Positions 35,372-62,503 of a DNA stretch of 64,000 nt are shown one piece after another; positions within the stretch are counted from its first letter, which is position 1; each line of letters starts with the position of its first letter. The stretch spans positions 124,001-188,000 of the forward strand of contig NBIV01000110.1 of NCBI GenBank assembly GCA_003194525.1, in the 5' to 3' direction. The notes under the pieces were generated by a model that saw nothing but the letters and a program-made list of their open reading frames with translations, was not told where the DNA came from and searched no databases. Both the position numbers and the translations under genes were made by a program. The DNA comes from Gracilariopsis chorda (lineage: Eukaryota; Rhodophyta; Florideophyceae; Gracilariales; Gracilariaceae).

Positions 35372-36223
35372 TTAGTCGTTTCTTATAAACACATTACGAA
35401 CTCCGGCTACTCTTTTGCCCATGAACCTTGCAATTCGAAAGTTTGGTTCGATGTAGCTGACGTCTAGTAAGCCAGAAGGATCGAAAAACTCAACTGGTAG
35501 TCCCAGTCGTAGTTCAGCTATAACTGCGTTCATATCACTAGGCAGCTGAATGCGTTTGCCGTCAGATCGTTCCAAGATCACTACCTTGTGTTCTAGCAAT
35601 TCAAGCTTCAGGCGACTGGGTCCAACAAATGTGTACTTACATTCCACATCCAATGTGGCATTGATATCGCCCTGCCCAGATGAACCAGGAAAAGTCCAAA
35701 GGGCGCGGTTAATTATGAGCTTCTTATCTGGTAAAACGTCCTGTCCTATACGGCGGATGCGTATGTTCCCACTTGTCTTTCCCCGCAAGGAAGAAAATAA
35801 CAATTTCCATGACCCCGCAAGGGCCGTTTCAGTGAAAATCTCTGTGGCCGCTGGGTTGTTTAGAGACTCAAGACGCCGTATAAGTCTTTCCACCTCAGTA
35901 ATCTGGGCGTCATCATTGATAAGAGTGTTCAGTAATTCCAGTAAACGATGCTTCGCCGTGCTTGGATCAGAAGGAAGATCGACTTTTGAAGTAGGTTTTA
36001 TTGGATCTTTGTTCTTTTCACTCGAATTGTTTTCTGAAATGCCGTTTCCAGTATGACAAAGAAGTAGAGCCCGCCCTCTCCTGCAGTATCGAATCCGAGA
36101 GGCAGTTGACTGCAGGTGAAAGGACTCTGACGACAACTCTCTAGCACAATTTTGTTTTTGTATCGGAAAGCCTGTACAAAAAGCGATGGGGCAACCGTTC
36201 GTATTACTGGCGCCAGGTTGCAT
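35372..36223 (-). CDS. Plastid lipid-associated protein (PAP/fibrillin family)
   Basis: The product is 283 aa from ATG 36223. An N-terminal stretch of about 75 residues rich in Ser/Thr/Arg is compatible with a plastid transit peptide. The PAP/fibrillin domain follows: AKHRLLELLNTLINDDAQ, the signature ETALAGSWKLLFSSLRGKT, a lipocalin-like beta region with NATLDVECKYTFVG, and a C-terminal LLDVSYIEPNFRIARFMGKR matching the family's D-x-(S/T)-Y-L-D-x-x-(M/L)-R-(I/L)-x-R block. Family members sit on plastoglobules or thylakoids and bind lipids and isoprenoids. The gene shows that the host has a plastid. Confidence 0.88.
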   Translation of the reverse strand: MQPGASNTNGCPIAFCTGFPIQKQNCARELSSESFHLQSTASRIRYCRRGRALLLCHTGNGISENNSSEKNKDPIKPTSKVDLPSDPSTAKHRLLELLNTLINDDAQITEVERLIRRLESLNNPAATEIFTETALAGSWKLLFSSLRGKTSGNIRIRRIGQDVLPDKKLIINRALWTFPGSSGQGDINATLDVECKYTFVGPSRLKLELLEHKVVILERSDGKRIQLPSDMNAVIAELRLGLPVEFFDPSGLLDVSYIEPNFRIARFMGKRVAGVRNVFIRND

Positions 36224-36259
36224 GGTTTTCTGGCTATCGCTTGGGCCTATCGAATGCAA

Positions 36260-36996
36260 GAGAAATGCGAAAAAGTTGAGGGTTGAGGGTTAACCGTTTA
36301 CCTCTTGGGTCTTCTCCGCAACAATTGCTCGGTATAAGATGTCAGAAAGTTATGACGCAATCGACAGGAAGGTTTTGCACCCAAGTGTAGATATGTCTAC
36401 CCTTCGTGAAGCCGGAAGAACGGACTTCGCTCCCTCGGAGCTGGACTGGAGATCTGTACCATTACGTATGCAAGGGCAGAATAGTTACCGCATACTGTAC
36501 AAGGGGGGAGCTCAGTGTGGTTGTGACTCACAACTTGTGAGAGTCTATGTATGGCTAGCCGATTACAAAATTTGGTAAGAGCATCTCTACCCGATAGTTC
36601 TATTCAGCTACTCTTGTTGTTGTTGTTGTACAGATGTATGAAAATGATTGGATCACAATGCCAGCAGTACACGTTAAGTTGCAATAGTCAAACTCGTTCT
36701 ACACTCGTACCGCTGGTACTGGGTTATTCCTGATTAGCATTTTGTGTCGCACACAAAGTCCATGAAAACATTGCCAGCAATGATACCGCGTATTAGGACG
36801 AGAGCATTTGTGTACTCGCATTTTTCATGCGAACACGGATTTGAACACGCTCAACTGCCGAGGGCGCAGATTAGCAAGCTTTCAAAATCGTGGCAATTCA
36901 GAGCGTGCGACGGCTCACGATGCAGACTTGACGGCTTTCTGCACCTTAACAGCACAGGTTTAGCCGTTACCGTCCCCTCTTCTTTACATCGTCGCC
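36260..36996. other. Intergenic region and probable left flank of the Harbinger element
   Basis: No supported gene. The left terminal repeat of the DNA transposon that starts to be readable at 36997 should lie here, but I could not identify a matching inverted repeat to the right flank (51.0-51.3 kb). Confidence 0.35.
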
Positions 36997-37396
36997 ATGC
37001 TTCACATTCTCCTCATTTTCCTCTCCAAAAGCAATCGACTGCGCTAAATCGACAACTACCCCTTCCGCCACCACATCTCGGCAACTGCGCAACGCCGTCG
37101 CGACAGACGTATCCCTCGGGTAGCGCTACAGGATTCACATTCATCTCCGTTTATGACTCTATTTCTGTCGGTTAATGATCAAGCTCTTATCACAATCACT
37201 GGTTTCGATCATAATGCCTTCGATTATATTCTAAAAAGATTCGCTCCACTTTACGGTATATACTCCCCGTACTCTATCACTGGGATGGTAACTCGCCTCC
37301 AGCGCCCGGCACGAAGACCGAGATCGCTGACAGCTTTGCAGTGTCTCGGTCTGGTGCTGAGTTGGGGCAGAACGCGAGGGTCTACCATGGTCTTGT
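36997..37396 (+). pseudogene. PIF/Harbinger-type transposase, N-terminal part (cut by element 1)
   Basis: The frame starts at ATG 36997, has a TAA at 37045-37047, and then reads through 37153 onward. Seen: GFDHNAFDYILKRFAPLYG and GRP-like PRSLTALQCLGLVLSW, typical of the N-terminal part of DDE_Tnp_4/Harbinger transposases before the DDE core. The frame stops being transposase exactly at the CTTGT duplication and LTR at 37397. It resumes in the same reading frame at 48909. The early TAA means the copy was possibly inactive, or starts downstream, even before the insertion. Confidence 0.75.
37392..37396. repeat. Target-site duplication CTTGT (left copy)
   Basis: CTTGT directly abuts the TG of the left LTR and matches 48904-48908 beyond the CA of the right LTR. 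Confidence 0.9.
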
Positions 37397-38203
37397 TGTG
37401 GTGCAATGCCCCAAAGGGGAAAAACACCGAAAGACGTCCGGGATCTTCCTCTCACGAGGTGAACCCAGTTGGGTAGAGCCCTCCCAGAGGTGTCACGGCG
37501 AAGCCGGTTTGTAAGACCAGGGACACCTGTCGCGACTCGCGCAGGGAGGTGAAGGCGAAGAATCGGTATCCGCGTGAGCGGGGTGTGATCCTCAGTAGAG
37601 GTATGTTTCCACGTAAGTGGGGGTGTGTGAGCGGATGCGCACACGAGGGCCGCGGATAGCGGGAGGTGCTACCCTAAAAAGGGGAAAGAGGAAGGACGAG
37701 TGGGTCGCGAGAGCGACGAGTAGATACGGCAATGCCAGTGGACAGGACTCCCTATACAGGGCGAAACACCAATATGATTGGAACAATTAGTACTCCCAAT
37801 GATGGGTCTCCTTTAGATGTGCAAGGGGGGTGAACTTCCGTACACTACGGTGCTTCCCTCCAAGAAGGAGTTGAGAACACGCGGAGGCGGTAAAGCTCAG
37901 AGCCAATTCCCCAGGTTGGGGTCCCTTGTTGGGGAAGGTTTACTGGTGCGACGGCAGTGCGCCGTCGCACTAAGTACTAGCTTCCCAGAAATGGGTGTGA
38001 AAATAATAAATAAAATTAACTAAAATACTCCACATTCCGTGGCAACATCCACTACTGTGGCCAACCGCCAATTGACCCAAAACCGTGTCCCACGTGTCCA
38101 TACCCACCATTGTGGGGCGTAGTTCATATACACACTACACAACCGATAATATCGGGAAAGCGTTCAAGTACCCAGAATCCCTCCCTGAGGGCGTTGCACT
38201 TCA
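37397..38203 (-). repeat. Element 1 3' LTR (left copy)
   Basis: 807 bp, TG..CA ends, near-identical to 48097-48903. Its first 290 bp hold at least ten perfect 4-bp-stem hairpins, for example 37570-37581, 37590-37601, 37609-37620. Confidence 0.95.
37946..37970. repeat. Strong LTR stem-loop
   Basis: A 10-bp stem GTGCGACGGC/GCCGTCGCAC with loop AGTGC. The right LTR copy (48646-48670) has one stem mismatch. The element B copy (52176-52200) has an 11-bp stem with a different 3-nt loop. Confidence 0.85.
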
Positions 38204-38215
38204 TATCCCCCCCTT
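38204..38215 (-). promoter_or_regulatory. Polypurine tract of element 1
   Basis: On the minus strand AAGGGGGGGATA directly precedes the 3' LTR start TGAAGTG. This is the expected plus-strand DNA primer site and fixes the element's orientation. Confidence 0.8.
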
Positions 38216-38259
38216 AAGGCGGGAAAACGACCGCGGGCGCGGAGGATTCCCAGACGAAA

Positions 38260-40047
38260 ATGGGTGATAAAAGCGCGTGCTTTGTCTCCGGTTCTCCGGT
38301 AAATCCCTCTGCACCAGAGTCATCAAGCACACAAACGACAACAACAGCCACCCTCCAAAAGGGACAAATGAACGACGACAACCATATCAACAGCCACAGC
38401 CAACCGCCGAGACTTCTCGGGCGGTACACCACCGGTTTCCGGTCAGTTCCCCTGCCTCAGGGCGATCGAAATCCGGTACAACCGGGGAATATGGCTGCTG
38501 CAGCCGACCATCCCTTCGCACTACCACCTTCGGTGGTGTCCTCCGGAACCACTCCGGTGTCCAACTGGCCAACCTACAACACCCTGGTGGGGCTCAACCC
38601 GATGAATCGGAATCACGCGTCGCGCCTGCGCCTTGCCCCGTGGTTTCACCCGGTCGCTGTCCTCAATGAGGGGTTGGTCACCGCTTATGCGGATGGTTCA
38701 GACACCCTTCCGGGGGATCTGCCCAGAGCAGTCACCACATCGTGGGATTGGCGTCACCGGATTGCGATTCCGCGTCACCACCTCCGAAGAAACTCGGGCG
38801 AGACCGTCGCTGCGGCGCAGACCGCGTTGACGCGGATGGCGTACCAACGGCAGAGCCGGGCTCCATTCGATGTACCGGTCCCACCGGAGTTTGGCTTCGA
38901 CGTTAGCTACTTCCGCACTCGCGGGGAGATTGGGTACGGCGAGAACCTGTTCCGCCTCGAGACCCTCGCTTGGAGGAATTTCCCCGCAGCGCGGCAAGAG
39001 GCCCTTTGCTGGGAGCGACCGATTATTCGGGCGGAGTTCAGGTACCTTCCCCGGCAATACCGGTCCAACTTTCTCCAAAACTTCATCCGCTACGAGCGGC
39101 GTTGGCGATCCCGATTCGGGTACTTTATCCCGTATCAGAACGTGGAGATAGAGCGGATTGCGCCGCCTCACCGACTAGGTCGGTATGTAGCACTCCCCGA
39201 GTGGTGGCGCTTCCATGAAGCCTGCCGGGGGTGCTACATAGAACTCCCGCCGGTACTTACGTACCTCGGTTCGCTGCTCATGCAGGATCCCCGGTCGGGG
39301 TTGTGGTCCGTAGTGGTTACGGAGTGGGCGGCCCGCAGTGCGGCTTATATCCTCAACGAGGCGTACGACCAGTATCGTCTCTGGTTCCTTCAACCGCGTG
39401 TGCGGGCAGCGATCCGAAACTTGGATCTTCGCATCCCCCTTGGGGGCCAGGCCAACAATGAAGAGGTCCTCCAATTACTTGGGTACATCGACAGCGTTAG
39501 CTGGAGTGAGGTCCCGCTGGAGCAAAGCGGTCGTCTGGATGGCGGCAGCGGTAACACCGGTGGTCCGGGACTCGGTAGAAACACCGCCCTTGCGGGGGAT
39601 TTTATCTACTTCGACCCCTGGGAGTTCCGGGAAATTTCCTCCGAGGAGGCGCGAGAGCTTCGCGATACGCCCCGGCATGTGCCGGAAGACCACCCGGTGG
39701 GGTACGTCGATTCTGACGACTACTACCGCGCATACGGCGGGGATGACCCAATGGTCGATAACGAACCGGAAGAACCCGGGGAGATGGACGTAGAGGAAAC
39801 CGGCGCTAGCGCGGAAGCTTTCCCAGAGGGGGTATCTCCGGCCGAGCCGGCTGCTGACCCTTCAACGGCAAGTGCCGGACCTTCTATCCCCAGCGGGGTG
39901 ACGGCGAATGAAAACGAAATCATCGCACGTTTCCTCCGGGGTGCCGGTCTTAGCGCTGCCGAGGTATCGGGGGATGTCACCACCATGGCGGACGCGTTGG
40001 CCTACCGCCTTGCTGGGGGTTACGCCCCGGACGATGGGGGTGAGTGA
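38260..40047 (+). CDS. Antisense-strand protein of element 1 (unknown function)
   Basis: The product is 595 aa from ATG 38260, 57 bp inside the 3' LTR and on the strand opposite to gag-pol. The Pro/Ser-rich first 80 residues are followed by a conserved core of about 330 residues with APWFHP, FDVSYFRTRGEIGYGE, RPIIRAEFRYLPRQ, RSRFGYFIPYQNVE, IELPPVLTYL, WSVVVTEWAARSAAYIL and YDQYRLW. An acidic tail ends in a Gly/Asp-rich segment. Homologous proteins lie in the same place in elements 2 and 3, so it is a maintained gene and not a chance frame. I recognise no known domain, signal peptide or membrane segment. It could be an envelope-like, structural or regulatory accessory; no function is assigned. 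Confidence 0.85.
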   Translation: MGDKSACFVSGSPVNPSAPESSSTQTTTTATLQKGQMNDDNHINSHSQPPRLLGRYTTGFRSVPLPQGDRNPVQPGNMAAAADHPFALPPSVVSSGTTPVSNWPTYNTLVGLNPMNRNHASRLRLAPWFHPVAVLNEGLVTAYADGSDTLPGDLPRAVTTSWDWRHRIAIPRHHLRRNSGETVAAAQTALTRMAYQRQSRAPFDVPVPPEFGFDVSYFRTRGEIGYGENLFRLETLAWRNFPAARQEALCWERPIIRAEFRYLPRQYRSNFLQNFIRYERRWRSRFGYFIPYQNVEIERIAPPHRLGRYVALPEWWRFHEACRGCYIELPPVLTYLGSLLMQDPRSGLWSVVVTEWAARSAAYILNEAYDQYRLWFLQPRVRAAIRNLDLRIPLGGQANNEEVLQLLGYIDSVSWSEVPLEQSGRLDGGSGNTGGPGLGRNTALAGDFIYFDPWEFREISSEEARELRDTPRHVPEDHPVGYVDSDDYYRAYGGDDPMVDNEPEEPGEMDVEETGASAEAFPEGVSPAEPAADPSTASAGPSIPSGVTANENEIIARFLRGAGLSAAEVSGDVTTMADALAYRLAGGYAPDDGGE

Positions 40048-40134
40048 AACCTCTAGTCCAGTTTCCTGGTTCTTCTTTCCCTGGCTATGCCAGTTAGTGT
40101 AGTGTAGTATTGTGGGGAGCTAGCTGCTCCCTTG

Positions 40135-40140
40135 AATAAA
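40135..40140 (+). terminator. Polyadenylation signal of the antisense gene
   Basis: AATAAA lies 88 nt after the stop at 40047, just after a GGGAGC/GCTCCC hairpin. Element 2 has AATAAA at the same relative place (56344-56349). Confidence 0.55.
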
Positions 40141-40238
40141 CTTTCCCGTTTAGAACGGTGCTTCTCGGTTGAGTTCCCCGTCTTCGACGGACCTTGTCTT
40201 GTTATCCTTTCCTTTCGCTCTCCGCTCGCGCGGCAACG

Positions 40239-43200
40239 TTACCCAACTTGGGCATTTACCAGCGTGGCTGGAGCTGCAGTTCCCGTTTGACGGTGGTATC
40301 GCACGACCTGCGACCGTGGGAGGTGTTCCATTGGCTCCCACGTATCCCCACTGGGGTCGTACCCGTACCAGCGGACGCGGTATTGTAGAATACCATCCTG
40401 GTCCCAGGTGTGTCCGACAAGTCGGTCTACTACGAACTCTCGTTCGTAGACCTGCCGGCCGTGCCGGGTGGTGGTTGTAATCCCTGGCGAGGGTTGCCCG
40501 CGGTGCGGTATAATGTCCCTTAGCAGGGTGTTCGGCGATAACTCCGACGTTGCCGTGCGCTGTCCTAGTGGCCGCTGCTCATGCGGGAAAATATCCCTCA
40601 AGAGGGTGTGTGGTGCCACAGTTTTCACCGGCAAGTCGTTCCCCAGAGGGGTGTCGTTGTTTCCGTCTTCACGGTAGGCCGGGCGAACCGCCAGTCGGCG
40701 GGGGACTTGGGTTCCGCCTTCGCGGTTGAGCGCACGAACCGCGAGTTTGCGGGAAGATGACCGCTCCTGCGGGATCGGCATTTCCACAATCCCCTGGGGG
40801 GTCCCGTGCGACACGGTGATTGGGTGGCGAACCGCCTCCCTGCCAGGCGCACGAGCGCTCTGCACCATACGTTCCGGCGATGCCGTGGTGTCCCCGGCTA
40901 CTGACGGGTTGCCTGGGGCTAACTCCGGTACACCGGTATTTTGGTCAAAATTCCCCTCTGGGGGGTTCCGGGCAGGTGCCGATGACACCCTTTTCAGGGG
41001 AATTGCCGCTGAGCGCAGTGCACCATCTCCGTGAGGAGGAGCAGCGTCCGGTACGACCGGTTTCGAGCGTGCGATGGCGCGCGTTATTCCCGAGTTCCTC
41101 GGTTCTTCGCCGCAGCGATGCGGGGGTTGGCGCAAATTATTCCCCGTAGCGGGGGCTTTGATTCCGTCAACGACGGGAGGCGTTTCCGGTGCTTGCGAGC
41201 CAGGGCTTAAAGCTTCGACTGCAGCTTGGCCGCCTTTTTCCCCAAGAGGGGTGTGGGTATTCCCCTGTGAGGCCGGCGTATCTGGGCGCCCCTTCTCCGC
41301 AGGGCGCGGATCTGATCGACCTGATTGAACCGCTTCCGCGGGGACTTCCGCCAACGGCGGCTTCGAGGCATCGGGCGATTGCCTTTCCGCTGCTGCGGTA
41401 TTGGAGTGAGGCTTCTCGTTTTCCCGGGACAAACGGTGTATTTGCCGCTTTTGCAGGGCCTGTGCGTCTGGTTCCTGTTGCACAGCACTGCCCGGGAACG
41501 GGGGATTAGTGTCGCGTGACATACTCCGTGCTCCACGGTCAGTGTTCCGTATGTTACGGTGTGTTTCCCGTTGCGACGGTGATATCGCTCCTCGAAAACG
41601 AGTGTTCTCCTCCCCCTCCTTAGACGGAGCGGCGGGATAAGGGATAACATTCCCCGCCTGGCGGGTATAGATGCGCGCCAGTGGGGCAGACGTGGTAGGG
41701 GCGGGCGCTGAGGGGCCCGAATTACCCGGCTGAGCCGGTGAGTCCGACAGAGTCGGTAGGTCTGAGAGTCCCCGGCTGGGGTGTGGTAGTACCGTAGGTC
41801 TAGTACTCCCGGATTGTTCCGGTGTAGCGGAGTCCGTAGAAACGGGGTTGCCTGGATCCAGGACTACCTCTGACGAGGGAGGAGGGGCGAGGACAACACG
41901 ATCACGGGAAATCCGTTCGTGCGTGTCCCCCATCTCTACCACGACAGTGTCGGTGTTAACAGAGATCACCTTGAAGGGTCCATCCGCCACAGGTGAGAGT
42001 TTGTGACGCTTCTCCCGTTCCGGGTTGTAGTATTCCTTCCTGATGAAGACGTAGTTATTTGCCCGAATCGGGGATGGTTTTCCTCGCACGCGAGCGTCAA
42101 AATCCCGCTTGTAAGCGGCTTGGGCCCGTGCCATAGACTTCCGCGCAGCGGGGACCAGCTTGGAAAGCCATCGCTTCCATTGCTGCCGGTAGATACCCAC
42201 AGATGGGAAATTGTCCAAGGTAGCTTGGGGTTCCAGCGCCACAGGCGGGGGTGTTCTAGATAGAACTAACTCGAATGGCGAAACTCCGGTAGTCCGGTGT
42301 ACCTGCGTATTGTACGCGTAGGTTACCGCATCAGCGTAGAGATCCCAATTCGTTGGGTGGTCAGCGACGTAGGAACGTAACGCCGCGAGTAACGTCCGGT
42401 TAAACCGTTCAACTTGCCCATTACACTGGGGGTGGTAGGTAGTCGTGAACAAGTTCTTGACATCCAGGATGCGACAAACATCCTGGAAGAACTTGCTCAC
42501 GAACTGCTTCCCGTTGTCAGAGAGCACCTCTACAGGGGGACCGTAGACAAAAATCCAGTGCGTCACCAGAGCCTGGGCCACCGTGAGAGCGGTTATCCTC
42601 CGAAGAGGGACAGTCCGTACCAGCTTAGAAAAGCGGTCGGTAATGACAAGTAGAAACTTGTTTCCACGTTTCGTGGTGAGTAATGGTCCGAGAATATCGA
42701 TCGCGATAAACTCGAGCGGCGCCCTTGCGGGGAATAGTTTCATCTTCCTCGCATTTTTGCGGAGTTTGACGCGATTCTTCGCGCATTCGCTACAAAACCG
42801 CACAGTTGCGTAGCAATCCACCGCCATTGCGGGCCAATAGAAATCCCTTCGCAGGGTTAGGTAGAGTTTCCTCCCACCTGGGTGACCTCCAATGGGGGCG
42901 TAGTGTGATAGATGTAACACCCGCGATTGCAGGGAATGTGGTACCACAATCTGTGGGCGGGCCTCGACCTTTCTTACGAGGTAGCCTTTGTCGTTTACCC
43001 CGAAAGGGAGATCTTCACCACCGTTGATACGGGCACGAATTCTCGTACAGAATGGGTCGCCGAATTGTTCTCGGATCATTTCTTCCGGTGATACCGGTAC
43101 AAAGTTTCCCGGTAACGGGTTCTCAGATTTATCTCGCGATGCGAGTAGTTCGTCAAAATCAGCATCCTCGTCCCAGGTTTCTGGCCTAGCCTCGACGGCA

Positions 43201-45800
43201 TGTTCCGGATCATCCGGGTCTATAGCCATGAAGCATGGGACTTCATCATCCTCCGTTGGGAGTGCTTCCCCACTTGTGGGTAACCGCGATAAAGCGTCGG
43301 CCTGAGTGTTCTGCGCACCCTTTTTATAAATGACTTGAAAGTCATATTCCGCGAGGCGGAGTCTCCAGCGCATGAGGCGTCCCGACGGGTCGGAGATATT
43401 CATCAACCACCTCAATGAGGAATGATCCGTGTACACGGTGAAGTGAATTCCCATAAGGTAGGGGCGCAGAGTGGTCATCGCCCATACGACGGCGAGGCAC
43501 TCTTTCTCCGATACGGAGTAGTTCCGCTCATGAACATTGAGCGAACGTGACCAATAACCAATTGGATGTCGTTCCCCCTCGGGGGTGGTTTGAAAAAGAG
43601 CACACCCGACTTGGTAGTCGCTCGAGTCCGTATCTACGGAGTATGGCAACCCAAGTTTTGGGAGATGTAGGATTGGTGGTGATGTGACAGCCTCCTTTAA
43701 GGAGTTAAAAGCTTCCGATTGCTCGGGCGTAAATGTTCCCAGTTTTGCGGGGTTCCCCTTTCGCAACAACGCGTTCAGGGGCGCTGCAGTATCCGAAAAG
43801 TTCGGGATAAACCGTCGATAGACGTTGACCAGCCCCAGAAAGGAGCGCAGTTCCGTTTGAGTACGGGGTTCTTTCGCCTCAACGAGGGATTTGACTCGAG
43901 CTTTCTCGATCGCTAACCGTCCAGGACGGATAATGTGACCCAGATACTTCACAGTATCTGTGAAAAACTCGCATTTCCTCAACTTGAGGGTAATTCCCGC
44001 ATCGCGGAGTACGGTCAGCACGTCTCGGACGTGAGTGAGATGGTCGTCCAACGAGTTGGAGAAGATGATAATATCATCAAGGTAGACCAGACAACTCCGC
44101 CACTTAAAGCGGTTGAGTAGAATATCTACTGCACGCTGAAAGGTGGCGGGGGCGTTGGTTAACCCAAATGGCATCCGCTTGAAGCGGTACGTTCCTGCAT
44201 GGCAGGTGAATGCGGTTTTGTCGCGATCCTCCTGTCTGACAGGTACTTGCCAATATCCCCAATTGGCATCAAGGGCCGTGAACACGGTGGCGTCTCCAAG
44301 GGAGTCAATGCACTCGTCCATACGAGGGATGGGGTACGTGTCCCTAACAGTCACGGCATTGAGCCGGCGGTAGTCGACACAGAACCTCCAGGTTCCGTCA
44401 GCCTTTAAAGCCAGTACAACTGGGGATGCCCAGGGCGATTGAGCGGGCTCAATCACACCTGCGCGGAGCATCTTGTCCACCTGGGACTGCTCCTCTTCCC
44501 GAGCTTTCGGACCTGCCCTGTAAGGGGGTTGTGCAACCGGTCGCGCACCGGGGATTAAATCGATCCGGTGTTCCGTTGCATCAATCTCGCCAAGCCAGCC
44601 ATCCCACATTGTGGTGAATTCCCGTAACATAGTACGGAGTTTGTCGCGGTGCGACTCTGGCACGTGGCTGAAGTCCAGCGCTTCAAGTGCGTTTTCCGGA
44701 TCAATCCGGTCATTGCTCGATGGAGCATTGTCCTGTGGAACAGGTGTGGTTCGCAATTCCGAGTTACTCGGTGTGTTCGACGCTGAAGTAGCGGTTTCCT
44801 CCCCCTCCTTAGACTTGACGTCTTCGGACGGCGGGGTGAACTCCTCAGAAGAGGTGGTAACTCCGAGTACATCGGCGGCTGTCATCTTCGTTGGCAGCAT
44901 TCCCATAGGATGGGGGGTTACACTCCCAATTACTTGGTGTTTGACCAGATACTGGGGGTGTTTGCCAAGGTTGGCAACCAATATCCGGAAAGGAACATCC
45001 GGGGAAATGGAGACAATTCCATTAGCCAGCGCCAGCTGGGATTTCTCGTACAACGAGGCGAGGGGTTGTATAACCCGAAGACCGTGTTGACGGGAATTTA
45101 CCTGTACCCAGACTTGGGACTCAGCCGGTATAGAAACCGAGGCAGCGACGCGGAGCTTGGTGGACTCGCGGGACGCGGGCGGTGGTTCCTGCGCAGCAGG
45201 GAGCGGAACTTGTTTCCGAGAGGACCGCTTTAGTGGGCGGCGAACAATCGGAACCGACGATCCGTCGTCAAGTTCTACACGCCTGAGGCGGGGCCTGATT
45301 GCGTCGACAAATCTGTCGCAGTAATCACATCCCATTATGACTGGTGCTGCCAGTGAACGGCAAACGATGAAGTCCAACTTCACCACAGATGTACCAAGTC
45401 TCACGACGAGGTCCACTGTGCCCACCGTTTGTAACGGATTGTTGTTCGCATCCGAAATGTCGGGGACCGCGTCAGAGCGGATACGCGACCGCACAAGCGG
45501 GGGTAACAATGATTCCACGACAAAGTTGGGGCCTGCACCTGTATCCAGGACGGTGAGAAACCTCACCATAAACTGGGGGTCAAGGCCAAGGTCGGCATAG
45601 ACCTTATAATTGCGCTTGGCCAAGACCAAGACTCTACCGGGAATCCGGGGATTTTTACTCCGTATCCACGGGCGACGCAACACACCGAGGTGCGCAGAGT
45701 CCGCGTCAGCGGTGTCTTTCCTCGAGAGGACTTTCACCGGGGAGCGAGGCGAGGACGCCTCGGGCGCCAACAGCCTCGTTTTTGAGGACGCCTCTCCCAA
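40239..45800 (-). CDS. Element 1 Pol: protease, RT, RNase H, integrase, chromodomain
   Basis: An intact frame of about 1,853 codons. Seen: aspartic protease LDTGAGPN (D at 86); RT with RMPFGLTNAPATFQ and catalytic YLDD (573-576); RNase H with YSVDTDSSDYQVG; a zinc-finger start (HLSHYAPIGGHPGG, CSECAK); integrase core with IDILGPL, VLSDNGKQF and ERFNRTL supplying D, D and E; a GPY/F-like module (SPVADGPFKVISV); then a linker of about 400 residues rich in Pro/Gly/Arg; and a C-terminal chromodomain (REFVVDRLVGHTWDQDG, YRVRWYGYDPSGDTWEP). The order PR-RT-RH-IN-chromodomain marks a Ty3/gypsy chromovirus, whose chromodomain usually guides insertion. The frame has no ATG near its start and overlaps gag's end in the -1 frame, so it is probably made by frameshifting. 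Confidence 0.95.
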   Translation of the reverse strand: MGEASSKTRLLAPEASSPRSPVKVLSRKDTADADSAHLGVLRRPWIRSKNPRIPGRVLVLAKRNYKVYADLGLDPQFMVRFLTVLDTGAGPNFVVESLLPPLVRSRIRSDAVPDISDANNNPLQTVGTVDLVVRLGTSVVKLDFIVCRSLAAPVIMGCDYCDRFVDAIRPRLRRVELDDGSSVPIVRRPLKRSSRKQVPLPAAQEPPPASRESTKLRVAASVSIPAESQVWVQVNSRQHGLRVIQPLASLYEKSQLALANGIVSISPDVPFRILVANLGKHPQYLVKHQVIGSVTPHPMGMLPTKMTAADVLGVTTSSEEFTPPSEDVKSKEGEETATSASNTPSNSELRTTPVPQDNAPSSNDRIDPENALEALDFSHVPESHRDKLRTMLREFTTMWDGWLGEIDATEHRIDLIPGARPVAQPPYRAGPKAREEEQSQVDKMLRAGVIEPAQSPWASPVVLALKADGTWRFCVDYRRLNAVTVRDTYPIPRMDECIDSLGDATVFTALDANWGYWQVPVRQEDRDKTAFTCHAGTYRFKRMPFGLTNAPATFQRAVDILLNRFKWRSCLVYLDDIIIFSNSLDDHLTHVRDVLTVLRDAGITLKLRKCEFFTDTVKYLGHIIRPGRLAIEKARVKSLVEAKEPRTQTELRSFLGLVNVYRRFIPNFSDTAAPLNALLRKGNPAKLGTFTPEQSEAFNSLKEAVTSPPILHLPKLGLPYSVDTDSSDYQVGCALFQTTPEGERHPIGYWSRSLNVHERNYSVSEKECLAVVWAMTTLRPYLMGIHFTVYTDHSSLRWLMNISDPSGRLMRWRLRLAEYDFQVIYKKGAQNTQADALSRLPTSGEALPTEDDEVPCFMAIDPDDPEHAVEARPETWDEDADFDELLASRDKSENPLPGNFVPVSPEEMIREQFGDPFCTRIRARINGGEDLPFGVNDKGYLVRKVEARPQIVVPHSLQSRVLHLSHYAPIGGHPGGRKLYLTLRRDFYWPAMAVDCYATVRFCSECAKNRVKLRKNARKMKLFPARAPLEFIAIDILGPLLTTKRGNKFLLVITDRFSKLVRTVPLRRITALTVAQALVTHWIFVYGPPVEVLSDNGKQFVSKFFQDVCRILDVKNLFTTTYHPQCNGQVERFNRTLLAALRSYVADHPTNWDLYADAVTYAYNTQVHRTTGVSPFELVLSRTPPPVALEPQATLDNFPSVGIYRQQWKRWLSKLVPAARKSMARAQAAYKRDFDARVRGKPSPIRANNYVFIRKEYYNPEREKRHKLSPVADGPFKVISVNTDTVVVEMGDTHERISRDRVVLAPPPSSEVVLDPGNPVSTDSATPEQSGSTRPTVLPHPSRGLSDLPTLSDSPAQPGNSGPSAPAPTTSAPLARIYTRQAGNVIPYPAAPSKEGEENTRFRGAISPSQRETHRNIRNTDRGARSMSRDTNPPFPGSAVQQEPDAQALQKRQIHRLSRENEKPHSNTAAAERQSPDASKPPLAEVPAEAVQSGRSDPRPAEKGRPDTPASQGNTHTPLGEKGGQAAVEALSPGSQAPETPPVVDGIKAPATGNNLRQPPHRCGEEPRNSGITRAIARSKPVVPDAAPPHGDGALRSAAIPLKRVSSAPARNPPEGNFDQNTGVPELAPGNPSVAGDTTASPERMVQSARAPGREAVRHPITVSHGTPQGIVEMPIPQERSSSRKLAVRALNREGGTQVPRRLAVRPAYREDGNNDTPLGNDLPVKTVAPHTLLRDIFPHEQRPLGQRTATSELSPNTLLRDIIPHRGQPSPGITTTTRHGRQVYEREFVVDRLVGHTWDQDGILQYRVRWYGYDPSGDTWEPMEHLPRSQVVRYHRQTGTAAPATLVNAQVG
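41611..41623 (-). promoter_or_regulatory. Internal polypurine-tract-like 13-mer (IN-linker boundary)
   Basis: On the minus strand this reads CTAAGGAGGGGGA and encodes part of SKEGEE. It is identical to 44800-44812, 57752-57764 and 60866-60878, and matches 12 of 13 bases of element 2's 3' polypurine tract (54321-54333). It is a candidate extra plus-strand priming site. Confidence 0.5.
44800..44812 (-). promoter_or_regulatory. Internal polypurine-tract-like 13-mer (protease-RT boundary)
   Basis: Same 13-mer as at 41611, here encoding SKEGEE between the protease and RT domains. It is conserved at the homologous place of element 2 (60866-60878). Confidence 0.5.
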
Positions 45801-45827
45801 AGGGGAGACTCCCTCAGTTAGTTTACC
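45794..45827 (-). promoter_or_regulatory. Candidate -1 frameshift site between gag and pol
   Basis: On the minus strand G-GTA-AAC precedes the gag stop TAA (45820-45818). The pol frame is -1 to gag here and is open across it. About 7 nt downstream lie two mutually exclusive hairpins, GGGA/TCCC (45803-45813) and CTCCC/GGGAG (45794-45807). The heptamer is not canonical at its P-site half. Confidence 0.4.
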
Positions 45828-47991
45828 GCCTTCGGCGGTGGGTTGGTTTCCTCGACAACGAGTGCTTCATCCCGTTGACGGGGGTTTCTATCCGCATAAG
45901 CGGGGGTTGCAACGGATGGTTGCGTGATCTCCCGAATCGGGATGTATGAAGCTTGCCGCGCACGCGGGGTCTGTGGTAGGGCGTGAGAAAAGTCCGTTTT
46001 AGCACGGAGGTAGGAAGCCGTCGGGACGGAACGTTTCTCCTCTGGAGTGAGGGCCTCATAATTTGCCACCACCTTGGCCATATCCTTCAGTGAACAAATA
46101 CACTGAGGAGAGGTATGGCCATGGGCATAGCACAGGTGGCAAATGAGAGCCAGCACCGCGACACGCGGATTATTATTCCGAGTATCGGAGAAGCGAACCG
46201 CAGGGCGGGTGTCAGTCCATCCAGGCCGTTGATAACGGGATTGACCGTTTGAAAACGGGAGTCGTTGGGGTTGAACCCGACTGTTACCACCGTATAGAAC
46301 GGGATCTTCTGTTCCCGTATCATGGGTTATCTCCGTCGTTGACGGTAACTCACTGGTGGGTATCGACACACCATCCCCCTGCGCTAAATGCACGGTATCA
46401 AATCCCTGTCCAGGGTTCCCATCCGCGGTGAGCGGGAGAGAGGAAGCTTCGCTTTCCAGCAACAACGCCTTGGCGGATTTAGACCGATTGTTCGGAGTTC
46501 TTGCACGAAGTGCATCCCCTTCCGCTCGAGCGTGTTGGACCAGCTCGAGGTAGGTGATCCTTCGCTTGTCCTCCCGATAACGGGTAACTAAACTCCGGAT
46601 TGCCGGGTCAAGACCATCAATGAACATGGTACTGCGCTCCCCAGCGGGTATACGTTACCACATCTGTGGAAAGCCTTGTTAAGGCGCACCGAGTAATCGG
46701 TCTCGGTCTCTCCAGCACGCTGGCGTGTATCTCGCAAAGCGAGGATAGCCTGCTGAATAGCGGTGTTGGTGGCGTAGGAGCGCAGAAGATACTGCACAGC
46801 CTCCGGCCAGCAAGTAACTCCTCCCTCGGAGGCGCGAGAAGATCCTCGGACAGAGGTGTATTGGTCCTCGGCCACTCCCCGTAAGAAATACGGTAAAGCC
46901 AAATAGGCTTGTCCCTCATTCATACCGAGGATATCGGCCTCCGCTACAAAGCGGGATAGGAAATCCAGTACTAGGACTGGGTCCTCTCCAGTAAAATACT
47001 GGTTGCGGAGCGAGAGCTGCATTCGCTTAATGCATTCTCGCACCTTTCCCGTACCACGAGGCGTACGTCCAAGTGACGAATCTTCAAGCCGGTAGTACCG
47101 GTATGATAAAAGCTTCCGGTAATCCGGGTTTGTCGGTTTCAATTCCCGGAGACCGGGGTGTCTTCTCCCCTTCTGGCGGGTTCGGACCACACCTTCAGTG
47201 GCCGATGACCGCTTCGAGCGGGAGGAGTAGCCTCGCTTCTCGTCCTCCCAGTCGGAGTCCGAGGAGCTCGAGCTAACCGAATGGTTTCGGGATGAGTCCG
47301 ACGATGTCGAAGAATCGGAGTCCGAATATTTTCGGTGGTGTTTCCGTCGGTGACGGCGTTTCTTCTTCCCAGCAACCTGGTCGTTGTGCGATGCCTCGTT
47401 TACTGGATCACCCAGGGATGGTTTGTCCATGAGGACGAACTGCTCCAGCGTCTCCAGGCGGGCACCAATCCGATCAAATCGGGCTTCAACTCCTTCGATG
47501 AAGGCGGCGGGTTGTCCCAAACTCTCCAACACGGAGTTGACGTCAGACCGTAAAATACGGAGTTCCTCGGCGACCTCCTCTACGGGGGTTGCCGAGACCA
47601 CCTCTTGGAGGGATTTTAGTTTCCCTACAAGGGTGTCATGGGCGGTCCACAGAGCGCGGACCTGGGATTCCAGGGAAGTCCCCTGGGGGGTGTTATCGCC
47701 CGTTCCACGGGGGCTTGAAGCCGCGACAGCGGGAGCAGGCCGGGGTGCCTGGGGCACTGCGGCAACAGCCGGAGTCGATGCTGCATTCCCCTGTGGGGGT
47801 GATAACGAGGGCAAAAGGAGGTTCCGGGGTTCCCGGTCGGGGGTATCATTCCGCAATGAAGCGGCGCCAGCACGGCTGGAACTTGTCCGTATAGGGATAC
47901 GGGGTACGAACCGAACTTCGGAAGTGTCCGCGTTGTCGCGGGAGCGACTACGCGTAACCACTGGCTCCGCGTCGGAGGGATTTCTCGACAT
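45818..47991 (-). CDS. Element 1 Gag with CCHC zinc knuckle, split by a frame change
   Basis: The first frame (47991-46588, ATG at 47991, 467 aa) has a disordered Pro/Ala N-terminus, a coiled segment (ESQVRALWTAHDTLVGKLKS), a basic RRHRRKHHRK patch and a capsid-like helical region. The second frame (46627-45818) carries on with MFIDGLDPAIRSLVTRY and a zinc knuckle CHLCYAHGHTSPQC (CX2CX4HX4C). The two overlap by about 40 nt and the second is -1 relative to the first. The change falls near a CGCT-CCCC-AGCG hairpin at about 46634-46645. It may be a 1-nt deletion in this copy or a second recoding site. Gag forms the virus-like particle. Confidence 0.8.
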
Positions 47992-48080
47992 GAGAAAATA
48001 CCGTTACGACGGGAAACGATCACGGAACTTCCGGTGAATGAAAACAAACCTCGTAAGAGGGAAAGCAAAAACCGATTCTA

Positions 48081-48093
48081 GGTCGGGAGACCA
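48081..48093 (-). promoter_or_regulatory. Primer-binding site of element 1
   Basis: Three nucleotides after the 5' LTR the minus strand reads TGGTCTCCCGACC, starting with the TGG expected opposite a tRNA CCA end. The same 13 nt occur at 52770-52782 in element B. The tRNA was not identified, and the site is itself a GGTC/GACC hairpin. Confidence 0.6.
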
Positions 48094-48096
48094 CTT

Positions 48097-48903
48097 TGTG
48101 GTGCAATGCCCCAAAGGGGAAAAACACCGAAAGACGTCCGGGATCTTCCTCTCACGAGGTGAACCCAGTTGGGTAGAGCCCTCCCAGAGGTGTCACGGCG
48201 AAGCCGGTTTGTAAGACCAGGGACACCTGTCGCGACTCGCGCAGGGAGGTGAAGGCGAAGAATCGGTATCCGCGTGAGCGGGGTGTGATCCTCAGTAGAG
48301 GTATGTTTCCACGTAAGTGGGGGTGTGTGAGCGGATGCGCACACGAGGGCCGCGGATAGCGGGAGGTGCTACCCTAAAAAGGGGAAAGAGGAAGGACGAG
48401 TGGGTCGCGAGAGCGACGAGTAGATACGGCAATGCCGGTGGACAGGACTCCCTATACAGGGCGAAACACCAATATGATTGGAACAATTAGTACTCCCAAT
48501 GATGGGTCTCCTTTAGATGTGCAAGGGGGGTGAACTTCCGTACACTACGGTGCTTCCCTCCAAGGAGGAGTTGAGAACACGCGGAGGCGGTAAAGCTCAG
48601 AGCCAATTCCCCAGGTTGGGGTCCCTTGTTGGGGAAGGTTTACTGGTGCAACGGCAGTGCGCCGTCGCACTAAGTACTAGCTTCCCAGAAATGGGTGTGA
48701 AAATAATAAATAAAATTAACTAAAATACTCCACATTCCGTGGCAACATCCACTACTGTGGCCAACCGCCAATTGACCCAAAACCGTGTCCCACGTGTCCA
48801 TACCCACCATTGTGGGGCGTAGTTCATATACACACTACACAACCGATAATATCGGGAAAGCGTTCAAGTACCCAGAATCCCTCCCTGAGGGCGTTGCACT
48901 TCA
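48097..48903 (-). repeat. Element 1 5' LTR (right copy)
   Basis: 807 bp, three differences from the left copy. It drives gag-pol on the minus strand. Confidence 0.95.
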
Positions 48904-48908
48904 CTTGT
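48904..48908. repeat. Target-site duplication CTTGT (right copy)
   Basis: Matches 37392-37396. Confidence 0.9.
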
Positions 48909-49528
48909 GCATGTTGTTCGGCATATCAGCATCGGTATGCTCGCTGTTTCTTCGTTTCGGGAGGCAACTTGTGTTGCGGGCATTGAAGGATGATGATAAC
49001 GCAGCTGTCAGAATGCCAACAGCTGAGGAAATAGAGGCCTTTCAAAATGCATTCTCTGCCAAATACTCTACCCTAGGTGATGTTTATGCTGTAGCAGATG
49101 GTTTGAAGCTTTACTTGGAGCAATCTGGGTACTGCGTAATTCAGAATATGTTCTATAATGGATGGACGCATGATCATTACGTCGGCAACGTCTTCGTGTT
49201 TGCTCCAAATGAATGCATCATTGCATGCGCAACAAACGCTCCAGGAGCCATGCATGACTCTACTATAGCTGAATGGGGAAACATTTATTCGAAACTAGAG
49301 GCCTGCTACGAAAACTACGGAGGGCGATGTGTCGTGGACTCCGCTTTTTGTAAGGCACAGTACCCATTTCTTATTAAGTCTGCACAGGATCATTTCAGCT
49401 CGGCTGTTTACGCTATAGATGTCGTACGCATGCGCCAAGCAACGTCTGCAAGGCAGGCATCCGAATGGGGAATGCGTGGATTTCAGGGAACTTTTCCTCG
49501 CCTCAAGGACCGAATGCCGTACGAGTAG
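48909..49528 (+). pseudogene. PIF/Harbinger-type DDE transposase, C-terminal part
   Basis: It continues the frame broken at 37396. Seen: VADGLKLYLEQSGY (first catalytic D in the DG motif), NGWTHDHYVGNVFVFAPNECI, APGAMHDSTIAEWG (second D in HDS) and VVDSAFCKAQYPFLIKS. The acidic third residue may lie in the RQASEWGMRGFQG segment (E of SEWG). These are the blocks of DDE_Tnp_4/Harbinger transposases. The stop is at 49526-49528. The neighbour on the opposite strand is a Myb-like protein, the usual two-gene layout of PIF/Harbinger elements. Confidence 0.85.
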
Positions 49529-49681
49529 AGAGGCAAACGTAAGCTAATTTTACTCTCAGTGGTTCGGCTATTCAACCTTCGGGCAAGACTGGTGGGGATT
49601 AATCAAATCGTATCATCTTATATGCCACACATGGGCGCAGAAGTAAACCATCTATTGTTCTCTATGAATCCGTAAAACAAG

Positions 49682-50659
49682 CTACTTCTTGACCAGCGAC
49701 ATCATCAACATCTCCATCATACGTTCATGTCGCTTGGTCTCTTCCTGCCGAATTGCTCGCTCCTCTGCCCGCTGCGCCGCTCTTTCTTTCCTCTCTTCCT
49801 CTCGTTCGGCCTCCCGTCGAAGGCGCTCTTCACGCTGTTCCTGTCTCCATTTCTTTTCTTCCTCACGCTCTATAGATCTCATCGCCGTGTCCTCGTCCCG
49901 CCTCGCCTGATCCTGCATCATCTGTAGCTTGTAAAGCTCAATCAGGTCAGCACTCGAGCTTCCTGGCGTCTCTTTTGCCCCCCTCTTACGCACGATAGGG
50001 CGTGCACTGGAAGGGCTCGGTGATTTTAGGGGGGTGTTCTCGCGCGCGCAGTCTGCTGAATGCAGTACTTCTGCGCCGCTAGGGCCGTCATCGAAAGGAT
50101 TAGTCTCCGGCTCCTCGTCGCCGGAATCAAATGCACAAAGGATATCATCCGAATCTTCACCTTCCCCGATGTCCGCACGTTCTGTCATACTGTAACGAAT
50201 AGGTTTAGCTTTCTCAACATCTGGAGTAATGGTAGGATCCCCAGTTGGGATCCTGCGGCGATGAAGAGAGGCAAATTTACGCTTCAAGCTGTCCACGGTG
50301 CGCTTATACTCGGGGTATCTTTCCGAATGAAGCCAGACGATATGGTCCCATTCCTCCTTAGCGAGCGGCAAATGTTCTTCTAGAAGCTCCAGTAAACTGT
50401 CTACTCCCTGCCTTGAAAATCCCGAGCCGCGCCCCCCACTCTTCTCGATCGTCTTCTTCCTCTTACGAATTCCACCCACTACCCTCGAAGCCGACTTTCG
50501 GCCACCTCTCTGCTGCCATGCAGCAGCATGAGAGGGTACATTTCTCGTCGCTGCGGCCCCGGAGAAAGTGGTGGAGAGGTTCCGGGGCATTGGTGGGGAT
50601 GCGCTAGTCGCAGCGGCATCGGGCGGAACAGACGGCAATGCACCTTGCGCGTGAGGCAT
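49682..50659 (-). CDS. Myb/SANT-like DUF6818 protein, Harbinger partner
   Basis: From the first ATG (50659) about 325 aa are encoded. The frame is open to 51022 through Pro/Ser-rich sequence without an ATG, so a 5' exon may exist. Seen: a trihelix-like domain, GFSRQGVDSLLELLEEHLPL then EEWDHIVWLHSERYPEYKR and VDSLKRKFASLHRRRIPTGDP, matching the DUF6818 pattern. An acidic linker and a long charged coiled coil (about 80 residues of Arg/Glu ending RMMEMLMMSLVKK) follow. In Harbinger elements the Myb-like partner binds the element ends and brings the transposase to the nucleus. It is convergent with the transposase, 154 bp apart. Confidence 0.75.
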   Translation of the reverse strand: MPHAQGALPSVPPDAAATSASPPMPRNLSTTFSGAAATRNVPSHAAAWQQRGGRKSASRVVGGIRKRKKTIEKSGGRGSGFSRQGVDSLLELLEEHLPLAKEEWDHIVWLHSERYPEYKRTVDSLKRKFASLHRRRIPTGDPTITPDVEKAKPIRYSMTERADIGEGEDSDDILCAFDSGDEEPETNPFDDGPSGAEVLHSADCARENTPLKSPSPSSARPIVRKRGAKETPGSSSADLIELYKLQMMQDQARRDEDTAMRSIEREEEKKWRQEQREERLRREAEREEERKERAAQRAEERAIRQEETKRHERMMEMLMMSLVKK

Positions 50660-51022
50660 AGGCGTCTCGGAGGAAGGCTGGGATGGCGATGCGGAGCGAA
50701 CTTGCGGCAGAGTCGCGACCGAAGGGCTTCGGTGACGTGACAGAGAAGCTTGTGTTCTCCCGGGGTTGCATTCCGAAGAGCGTTGTACGGAGAGCGGAGC
50801 CGGTATGAAAGGAGGAGAGGGAAGCGATGGGGGCTCAGGGAAGCTCTCCGAAGGATCGTGGAGCGGGTGTTGTGCGTAGGCGGTATCTTGACCGGCGGGT
50901 GGGGCAGGGGCAAATCCGCTTGGCCGGAGGAAGTCATTCTGCACGTGCGAGGAGGTGCCCGGCGGGAGGTAGTCGGTTTTGGAAGGGGGGTAGGCGAAGG
51001 TTGGTGGACACAGCTGGCACAA

Positions 51023-51942: not shown

Positions 51943-52766
51943 TGTAGTCCAGCGCCCTGAGGGAGGCATTCTTGGTACTTGAACGCTTTCCCGATATTAT
52001 CGGTTGTGTAGTTTGTATATGAACTACGCCCCATTATGGTGGATATGGACACGTGGGACACGGTTTTGGGTCAATTGGCGGTTGGCTACAGTAGTGGATG
52101 TTGCTACGAAATGTGGAGTATTTTAGTTGATTTTATTTATTATTTTCACACCCATTTCTGGGAAGCTAGTACTTAGTGCGACGGCACGCTGCCGTCGCAC
52201 CAGTAAACCTTCCCCAACAAGGGACCCTAACCTGAGGAATTGGCTCTAGTTTTTACCGCTTGCGCGCGTGCTCTACTCCTTCTTGGAGGGAAACGCCGTG
52301 AACCACGGGACATCTAACCCCCTTGCACATCTAAAGTGACCCATCACTGGGAGTCATATTATTCCAATTGCATTGGTGTTTCGCCCTGTATAGGGATATT
52401 GTTACCGGCATCGCCGTTCGCCCCCTTAATCTCGCGACTCACTTCGTCCTCTCTTCCTCCTCTTCGCCCTTCCTTTTCCCCTTTCTAGGGTAGCACCTCA
52501 CGCTATCCGCGGCCCTCGTGTGCGCATCCGCTAACACACCCCCACTTACGTGGAAACCTACCTCTGGCGAGGACGCATTCCCGCTCTCGCGGATACCGAA
52601 TCTTGTCCTAAACCCTCTTGCACTAGTCGCAAAGGGTGGCCTCGGTCTTACAAACTGGCTCAGCCGTGCCACCCCTAGAGGGGCTCTACCGGACTGGGTT
52701 CACCTCCACGGAGGAAAGATCCCGAACTTCTTTCGGTGTTTCTCCCCTTTGGGGCGTTGCACCACA
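51943..52766 (+). repeat. Element B 5' LTR
   Basis: About 824 bp, the reverse-complement homologue of 37397-38203, ending CACCACA. Many of the short hairpins are kept, for example the strong stem at 52176-52200. Confidence 0.85.
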
Positions 52767-52769
52767 AAG

Positions 52770-62495: not shown

Positions 62496-62503
62496 AGCGA
62501 ACA

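Follow-up and report, generated by a model that had tools for sequence, protein, structure and literature searches.

Perfect micro-hairpins along the length of a chromovirus retrotransposon in the red alga Gracilariopsis chorda: a clade-specific and apparently selected trait

Introduction

Why should a retrotransposon be filled from end to end with short perfect inverted repeats? The question is raised by a 64,000-nt stretch of the red alga Gracilariopsis chorda (assembly GCA_003194525.1, contig NBIV01000110.1, positions 124,001 to 188,000 of the forward strand), called the window below. A first-pass annotation had described one long terminal repeat (LTR) retrotransposon within it, element 1 (e1, 37397-48903, minus strand), as saturated with micro-hairpins about every 25 nt. 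Here the hairpins are counted against shuffled controls, followed through related elements and weighed against known kinds of RNA structure. The array is real, lies strongly above chance and spans the whole of e1. The trait belongs to a chromovirus-family clade, and its stems are apparently preserved in replicating lineages.

Results

Hairpin excess in element 1

All 22 hairpins singled out in the first-pass annotation proved to be perfect stems where they had been placed, for example ACCACC-TTC-GGTGGT in the antisense gene (38523-38537) and CCCCG-TAG-CGGGG in the pol linker (41142-41154). The loop range of 3-5 nt reported with them holds for 18; the remaining four (at 37463, 37531, 38407 and 38493) have loops of 1-2 nt. 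Counted over 37396-48903, stems of at least 4 bp with loops of 3-5 nt number 543, against 149.7 (sd 14.7) in 200 dinucleotide shuffles, a 3.6-fold excess. With the same shuffles the excess is 4.7-fold for stems of at least 5 bp (178 against 38.2, sd 6.8), 3-fold at 6 bp or more (29 against 9.6) and 2.5-fold at 7 bp or more (6 against 2.4), so that the preferred unit is a stem of 4-6 bp. Local shuffles, in windows of 12 to 60 bases, give an expectation of 140-144 for the 543 stems observed. The supposed rate of one hairpin about every 25 nt was a fair estimate: 372 non-overlapping strong hairpins occupy 11,508 nt, or one per 31 nt.

LTRs, gag, pol and the antisense gene all show the excess, and the claim that it exceeds shuffles keeping codon or dinucleotide use survived both checks. 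Under codon-preserving shuffles, pol has 262 stems against 84.5 (z 18.5), the first gag frame 83 against 24.8 (z 11.7), the second gag frame 35 against 12.6 (z 6.8) and the antisense gene 79 against 31.8 (z 8.6), and five host open reading frames show no excess of stems of at least 4 bp (z -0.6 to 1.1). The non-coding 3′ LTR (counted on 37396-38203) has 36 such stems against 9.5 in shuffles and the 5′ LTR (48096-48903) 38 against 9.9. In 1-kb bins the excess starts and stops near the ends of e1; a second raised region, from 52 kb to 64 kb, corresponds to an inverted truncated sister copy, a second element and part of a third.

Identity and parts of element 1

Element 1 is a Ty3-type chromovirus. 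Its LTRs, each of 807 bp and hairpin-rich, lie at 37397-38203 (3′ in the sense of pol) and 48097-48903 (5′), are 99.6% identical and are flanked at both ends by the 5-bp target duplication CTTGT. Between them, on the minus strand, the hairpin-rich pol frame (40239-45866, 1875 amino acids) carries in a single frame the Pfam domains RVT_1 (residues 488-646), RT_RNaseH (740-841), H2C2 (975-1032) and rve (1049-1146), with a C-terminal chromodomain (Chromo, 1811-1852, E 1.3e-9). Roughly 660 residues separate the integrase core from the chromodomain, and the pol stretch at 40239-42000 is GC-rich (0.62). No protease was matched by Pfam in the pol or gag frames at E<=0.01; a DTG motif stands upstream of the reverse transcriptase (RT) in the majority line of aligned pol relatives.

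There are two hairpin-rich gag frames, also on the minus strand. The first (46591-48003, 471 amino acids) has 39 homologues at E<=0.001 (7999 candidates scored), the named ones being P0029 (BWQ96_04085) of G. chorda and others from Agarophyton chilense. In the translation of the second (45821-46654) a zinc-knuckle type motif, CX2CX4HX4C, can be read, with a weak Pfam match to zf-CCHC_2 (E 0.49). The gag of e1 (45821-48003) is thus split into two overlapping frames; relatives such as P0004 have a single gag frame with the same motif. Either frameshifting or a broken copy may explain the split.

A hairpin-rich gene of 609 amino acids adjoins the 3′ LTR on the strand opposite to pol (38218-40047, plus strand). 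Its product gave no Pfam match at E<=0.01, and neither did the homologue in element 2 or P0002. Relatives are encoded by two other elements in the window (49% and 42% amino acid identity), and P0002 of G. chorda is a further one (51%). The gene lies opposite the 3′ end of pol in all three elements (38218-40047, 54692-55984 and 62816-64000, all plus strand) and encodes a putative conserved accessory protein.

When the e1 LTR (37396-38203) was searched against the genome (G000; 91.3 Mb, 1081 contigs, the window being C110:124001-188000), at least 41 matches were found, including the other LTR of e1 (40 of 1808 candidates scored). Among the matches listed, 39 are 100% identical, one 99% and one 90%, and the near-complete identity indicates that the e1 family is young. 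Chromodomain-bearing relatives among the best 120 of 4950 are 54-66% identical in the searched region. No relatives of e1 were found in viral contigs. Among prokaryote genome contigs one search found none, and another found three remote Gypsy pieces in metagenome-assembled genomes (MAGs).

Geometry and spacing of the hairpins

The most enriched geometry, a 5-bp stem around a 3-nt loop, occurs 72 times against 6.7 host-scaled; the most numerous, a 4-bp stem around a 4-nt loop, occurs 104 times against 30. Loops of 3-4 nt are favoured, which points to a folded single strand and not to protein on duplex DNA, and they share no motif. CC stands first at the stem base in 227 of 377 hairpins and GG in 11, and the inner pairs differ from hairpin to hairpin yet match, as the first-pass annotation had it. 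Where CC...GG frames span 13 nt, the inner positions match fully in 65 cases against 3.9 (sd 1.9) when the 3′ arms are permuted (host 2 against 1.6); at a span of 12 nt the figures are 103 against 16.0 (sd 3.5; host 8 against 5.8). The suggestion that stems covary therefore holds within one sequence, where inner pairs are complementary, and only weakly between families. Binding of protein to dyads in duplex DNA was rejected, as was a dispersed-repeat origin, because 95 hairpins with 5-bp stems and 3-nt loops use 64 different arms. As regards the dyads, loops shorter than 3 nt may be explained by fraying of the inner pairs.

The commonest spacing between hairpin starts is 20-21 nt. Very short linkers are under-represented and those of 5-11 nt favoured: 138 gaps of 5-11 nt and 41 of 0-4 nt compare with 177 and 127 in 30 shuffles (P=3e-5). 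Between strong hairpins, 94 of 371 gaps are of at least 26 nt and 14 of at least 55 nt, the longest being 136 nt. No strict periodicity was detected in e1; the top period, 20.75 nt, has a power of 5.2, below the median maximum of 5.8 in gap-shuffled arrays, and a strict 21-nt period or helical phasing was rejected on that ground. A weak component at 30.75 nt (power 3.4) exceeds the null only pointwise (0/500). Rfam gave no match at the gathering score in 37000-64000, and on this negative a known RNA family was rejected for that region.

Distribution among related elements

Ratios in this section compare stems of at least 4 bp with local shuffles. The ratio is 3.84 for e1 (4.19 in its LTR, 3.26 in its antisense gene), 4.34 for the sister RT sequence L061, 3.55 for a sister fragment and 3.33 for the third element of the window, of which part lies at 62000-64000 (antisense-gene homologue 62816-64000, plus strand). 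It is 3.12 in the L048 family, 2.32 in the L073 family and 1.79 in the L075 family (z 2.3, 901 bases). Element 2 (e2), of a related Ty3 family (54692-61875, minus strand; antisense gene 54692-55984, plus strand), and its relative L032 both reach 2.00. At stems of at least 5 bp there is no excess in e2 (1.19), L032 (1.31) or L075 (1.21).

The distant Ty3 element L078, with 37% amino acid identity to e1, has no excess (0.61). Four Copia loci chosen by the analyst (L067, L068, L069 and L071) have little or none, with ratios of 0.95, 1.06, 1.25 and 1.55; all six, with L070 and L072 entering this count alone, contain 39-60 stems against 41-50 expected. Two of the Gypsy pieces from MAGs, L081 and L082, give 1.27 and 1.19 for stems of at least 4 bp and 2.11 (z 4.0) and 1.62 for stems of at least 5 bp; the third, L083, was left out of the hairpin counts. 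The trait therefore belongs to the chromovirus-family clade and is graded in strength within it, being shared by five related Ty3 families (1.8- to 4.3-fold).

Preservation of stems

Preservation was assessed by re-placing the observed substitutions at random onto sites of the same base and, in coding DNA, of the same codon position and synonymy class, with stems around loops of 12-20 nt as controls. Since defining stems one way, from a single sequence, is biased by ascertainment, this test and a comparison of LTR groups were relied upon instead. Among the loci compared are two near-copies of e1 (L062 and L064), one close relative (L066) and two members of the L048 family (L063 and L065). Within-family variants and similar comparisons drew on L033-L046 and most of L049-L060, L047 standing outside the within-family variant counts.

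Between LTR groups A and B, 4 stems were lost against 16.3 expected (reverse direction 3 against 15.4), between A and C 7 against 14.8 (2 against 11.9) and between B and C 8 against 15.6 (3 against 12.8). Summed over the six directions, 27 stems were lost against 86.8 expected, and 59 control stems against 70.8. In the RT region the losses were 6 against 28.4 from e1 to L061 and 18 against 35.1 in reverse (24 against 63.5 both ways), 6 against 29.7 from L066 to L061, and 4 against 11.3 from e2 to L032. Low loss at P<=0.05 was reached by 2 of 33 control rows.

Among four LTR groups, changes fixed between groups fall in 18 of 262 stem columns and 98 of 546 non-stem columns (0.069 against 0.179; ratio 0.38). 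Private changes fall 39 times on stems and 67 times elsewhere (ratio 1.21; Fisher test of fixed against private, P=3.7e-4), and pooled control stems, here with loops of 12-24 nt, give ratios of 1.27 and 1.26 (P=1.0). With two copies per group in one shared alignment, and with fixed changes counted as columns and private ones as events, this test is approximate. Within families, singletons fall on stems with a ratio of 1.26 in the L048 family (control 1.37) and 1.32 in the e2 family (control 0.98); shared variants of the e2 family avoid stems relative to singletons (odds ratio 0.56, P=0.01; control odds ratio 1.10).

The inverted truncated sister copy (51943-53545, plus strand), 90% identical and made up of a group D LTR, leader and the start of gag, lost stems at the neutral rate in its gag part (15 against 15.3). 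The reverse comparison gives 1 loss (7.6 expected) and 15 gains (3.1 expected), which is that event viewed in the opposite direction. In the LTR part of the copy, stems were retained to some degree (19 lost against 26.6), as would follow if some of the divergence arose while it was still replicating. Thus no preservation after chromosomal insertion was seen in private and singleton changes, which presumably postdate insertion, or in the gag part of the truncated copy. Stems are apparently preserved in replicating lineages, most clearly in LTRs and more weakly in coding parts, which we read as purifying selection during replication.

Turnover of hairpins

The first-pass annotation had also proposed that one arm is rewritten from the other. 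This is not supported, since paired, stem-preserving changes account for 1 of 109 changed pairs across six comparisons of close lineages, some with a sequence in common (1/8, 0/9, 0/11, 0/35, 0/29 and 0/17). Among pair-state changes fixed between LTR groups, 3 of 17 are paired. Stems were gained more often than by chance when L061 was the receiver (18 against 7.1 and 12 against 6.6) and elsewhere at the chance rate, apart from 34 against 11.0 when the sister copy is the starting point. The latter we read as losses of the decayed sister copy; the gains of L061, read the other way, may be losses of e1.

Between e1 and L048 synonymous sites are saturated (identical codons 0.49 among codons for the same residue), and L048 shares 21 of the 67 hairpin centres of e1, compared with 13 of 68 for control stems. 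So some hairpin positions last, and most hairpins are family-specific. Each family's hairpins being largely its own, the selected feature would be the local hairpin shape and not particular sites. Long-distance compensation is weak; of pairs changed at both positions, 88 of 190 stay Watson-Crick against 50 of 144 in controls (six overlapping comparisons).

Folding energy

The minimum folding energy difference (MFED) of e1 is 11.2% in the sense strand (s.e. 1.0) and 9.8% in the antisense strand, over 32 fragments of 350 nt with 12 shuffles each. Sense and antisense values are 5.9% and 5.6% for L048, 3.4% and 2.0% for e2, 1.4% and 0.2% for Copia, and 0.1% and -0.4% for the host. The folding gain is weaker in the region of the antisense gene (-41.2 against -39.6 in 120-nt windows).

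Other features of the window and genome

Outside the elements, the bin just before e1 (36001-37000) contains 21 stems of at least 4 bp (11.8 expected) and 11 of at least 5 bp (3.0 expected), and the interval 48904-51942 of host DNA has a ratio of 1.44. The host bin beginning at 5001 holds 22 stems. Short stems are mildly more frequent over host positions 13001-18000 (16-20 per kb, 11-13 expected), where the GC content is 0.43-0.44 from 14001 on. At another locus (L007:650-2308) a group B LTR and an inverted e1 LTR lie just 26 bp apart, which suggests a nested or near-site insertion.

A search for C5 DNA methyltransferase (PF00145) gave no match in the 91-Mb genome; 10 of 14 control genomes match. 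Partial Piwi-domain matches, in pieces and in both orientations, recur about every 8 kb on contigs C483, C648, C777 and C944, a pattern that a repeat array with a Piwi-related fragment in it would give.

Discussion

What the array might do

Our tentative reading, to which we give a probability of about 0.45, is that the hairpins form a lattice in the genomic RNA, recognised by a nucleic-acid-binding protein of the element itself. The nucleic acid that replicates, most likely the genomic RNA, would consist of several hundred autonomous micro-hairpins, each with a stem of 4-6 bp, a loop of 3-5 nt and a base that is mostly 5′-CC...GG-3′, joined by linkers mostly of 5-11 nt. Selection would act on local hairpin shape during replication and, least certain of all, the array would be a packing lattice bound by an element protein, for which the putative zinc-knuckle Gag is the first candidate. 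Under nearest-neighbour rules a stem base with G on the 5′ side and C on the 3′ side is as stable as one with C on the 5′ side and G on the 3′ side. A lattice bound by Gag would explain the polarity that places C on the 5′ side of the base, the few short linkers, the restriction to one clade and the cover of LTRs, antisense gene and coding sequence alike. A bolder form of this reading is rather doubtful: that an algal chromovirus clade carries, over and above its genes and LTRs, another code along the entire genome, made of hundreds of micro-hairpins that can replace one another and are recognised by their shape by a dedicated element protein, packaging or protection then depending on the full length instead of a single signal.

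Several results weigh against the lattice. There is a mild background excess in host positions 1-36000 (1.27-fold, z 5.0) and in the Copia copy L068 (1.55-fold, z 3.3). No stem protection is seen from L032 to e2 (12 lost against 14.7, not significant), and in RT the control stems were also lost less often than expected (20 against 34.8 for e1 and L061 both ways), so that general constraint accounts for some of the coding signal and the hairpin-specific share is smaller. Stems in the LTR-group test were defined by presence in at least two groups, which favours conserved ones, a bias that the controls share. Shared and singleton variants are alike in the L048 family (11/63 against 111/461, P=0.43), where the family's own control is low (P=0.05), and singletons in the e1 LTR (6 on stems, 19 elsewhere; ratio 0.82, control 0.20) are too few to use. 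The predicted pair probability of e1 hairpins, 0.43 in the sense strand and 0.39 in the antisense strand, is ordinary when set beside chance hairpins of the host (0.45 and 0.41). Equilibrium RNA folding is thus not obviously optimised, and optimised equilibrium folding of one strand was rejected; selection may favour locally closing hairpins over the global energy minimum, which would be relevant to folding during transcription or to recognition by protein. Mid-stem G-U stands at 0.79 and A-C at 1.06 of expectation in e1. The annotation's alternative of selection for a structured genomic RNA is supported as to selection (27 LTR stems lost against 86.8) and less so as to the genomic RNA as the molecule, given the near strand symmetry and a tolerance of G-U that is not clearly better than that of A-C. 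Finally, Gag as the partner is a guess, RNA folding in the array is predicted and protein binding is conjectural.

Among other explanations, the main rival is shielding, in which structure along the whole length would interrupt the accessible single-stranded regions and in this way hide the RNA from the host's RNA surveillance, in this case silencing guided by Argonaute. The MFED of e1 lies within the range printed for hepatitis C virus (HCV) and pegivirus, and the style of evolution is alike, positions being largely unconserved and paired sites less variable. The host genome has two full-length Piwi-domain matches and none to PF00145, and transcripts with genome-scale ordered RNA structure (GORS) escape recognition by RIG-I and PKR in vertebrate cells, according to the part of PMC3950689 used here. 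However, a hairpin excess is missing from most of the Copia copies counted in this genome, the 94 of 371 gaps of at least 26 nt leave many targets of small-RNA size open, and GORS as described has no preference for perfect hairpins of 4-6 bp on a fixed CC/GG base, so that shielding seems to us unlikely. It is improbable, too, that the folded molecule is single-stranded complementary DNA (cDNA) or antisense RNA, with hairpins that protect or organise that molecule during reverse transcription or prevent sense and antisense transcripts from annealing. This would accord with the near strand symmetry, the strict Watson-Crick pairing and an antisense gene conserved in three elements, and also with a slight preference in pol sense for A-C, which is G-U on the other strand (107 G-U against 156 A-C in e1, L048 and e2 pooled, P=0.026 against G-U). 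That preference is small and uncorrected for multiple looks, however, and as a marker of strand the tolerance of G-U and A-C points different ways in separate comparisons. At outer positions the families disagree (A-C 3.19 and G-U 1.50 in e1, 2.33 and 2.85 in L048, 1.98 and 2.71 in e2); fixed pair changes in LTRs are few (8 A-C and 4 G-U, against 11 and 17 private, P=0.17); and in pairwise LTR comparisons G-U exceeds A-C (6:0, 5:3 and 7:3). The lack of a G-U excess fits either a stability threshold that G-U would fail to reach or hairpins that act in both strands or in the cDNA while it is single-stranded.

A mutational origin, in which reverse transcriptase makes palindromes by snapping back or switching template and so copying arm onto arm, would explain strict Watson-Crick pairing, neutrality of strand, the occurrence of stems in all codon phases and the clade restriction. 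Yet it predicts paired changes, of which there was 1 in 109, and stem gains, which were at chance save with L061 as receiver and from the sister copy to e1 (34 against 11.0); nor would it lead one to expect CC/GG as the outermost pairs, the last to be written in a snap-back. We regard it as very unlikely. That the excess is an artefact, whether of base composition, of codon use or of a dispersed repeat, can be dismissed with near certainty. The GC content of e1 is indeed higher than that of host positions 1-36000 (57% against 50%), and parallel complementarity, which is structurally meaningless, is also raised (265 against 131 host-scaled), an effect ascribed to the spacing of CC...GG. But the excess survives dinucleotide, codon, codon-context and local shuffles, which rule out composition and codon use; permutation of inner arms leaves 3.9 of 65 matches, and mirror repeats (121 against 223) and direct repeats (197 against 234) are both below the host level.

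Comparison with known systems

Across the 11.5 kb of e1, in coding and non-coding DNA alike, perfect 4-6-bp hairpins are in fourfold excess, apparently through selection, suggesting that a structural code can run the whole length of a retroelement beneath the proteins it encodes. With graded families and nearly hairpin-free Copia elements in one genome, the choice between packaging and evasion of silencing is directly testable. Our literature search, mostly at the level of titles, returned no report of a retrotransposon saturated with micro-hairpins, and within the literature searched this clade-specific trait is unlike anything found described for a retroelement.

The nearest known kind is GORS. 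In the sections of PMC7642675 used here, viruses with GORS are described as having hundreds of sequential, mostly unbranched stem-loops across the entire genome with poor positional conservation and less variable paired sites, and MFED values are given as about 15% for SARS-CoV-2, 7.5-10.7% for HCV and 12.5% for pegivirus. Element 1 is similar in that its folding energy lies below that of shuffles along its length (MFED 11.2%), its structure is kept while positions are poorly conserved (21/67 centres shared with L048 against 13/68 for controls) and paired sites are less variable in its LTRs (0.069 against 0.179). GORS concerns positive-strand RNA viruses, whereas e1 is an algal LTR retrotransposon, so that e1 may be said to work like GORS, not to be GORS. 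Coronavirus stem-loops are described in the same sections as interrupted, with several duplexes and paired runs seldom above 14 bp (PMC7642675); the units of e1, in contrast, are perfect 4-6-bp stems that span mostly 11-14 nt on a CC/GG base. Unlike GORS and coronavirus RNA, moreover, the signal in e1 is nearly strand-symmetric and pair probabilities are not raised.

Among LTR retroelements, the RNA structure of yeast Ty3 has been probed by selective 2′-hydroxyl acylation analysed by primer extension and mutational profiling (SHAPE-MaP), and the genomes of Ty1 and Ty3 are characterised as A-rich mosaics with stable regions of up to 30%, against about 40% in human immunodeficiency virus type 1 (HIV-1), in the portion of PMC11381356 drawn on here. 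Like these, e1 is an LTR retroelement with gag, pol and a structured genomic RNA (predicted in e1), and some cis elements lie in hairpins. A uniform micro-hairpin array is not described in that portion of the study (PMC11381356), and in this e1 differs.

A looser likeness is to dispersed packaging signals. In single-stranded RNA viruses these are many degenerate hairpins recognised by the coat protein; e1 resembles them in its many degenerate hairpins along the genome and differs in being far denser, in having no shared loop motif and in a partner that is conjectural. In its protein domains and their order e1 is like other chromoviruses of the Ty3 group (Metaviridae), to which it adds an antisense gene, the linker of roughly 660 amino acids between integrase and chromodomain, and the hairpin array itself.

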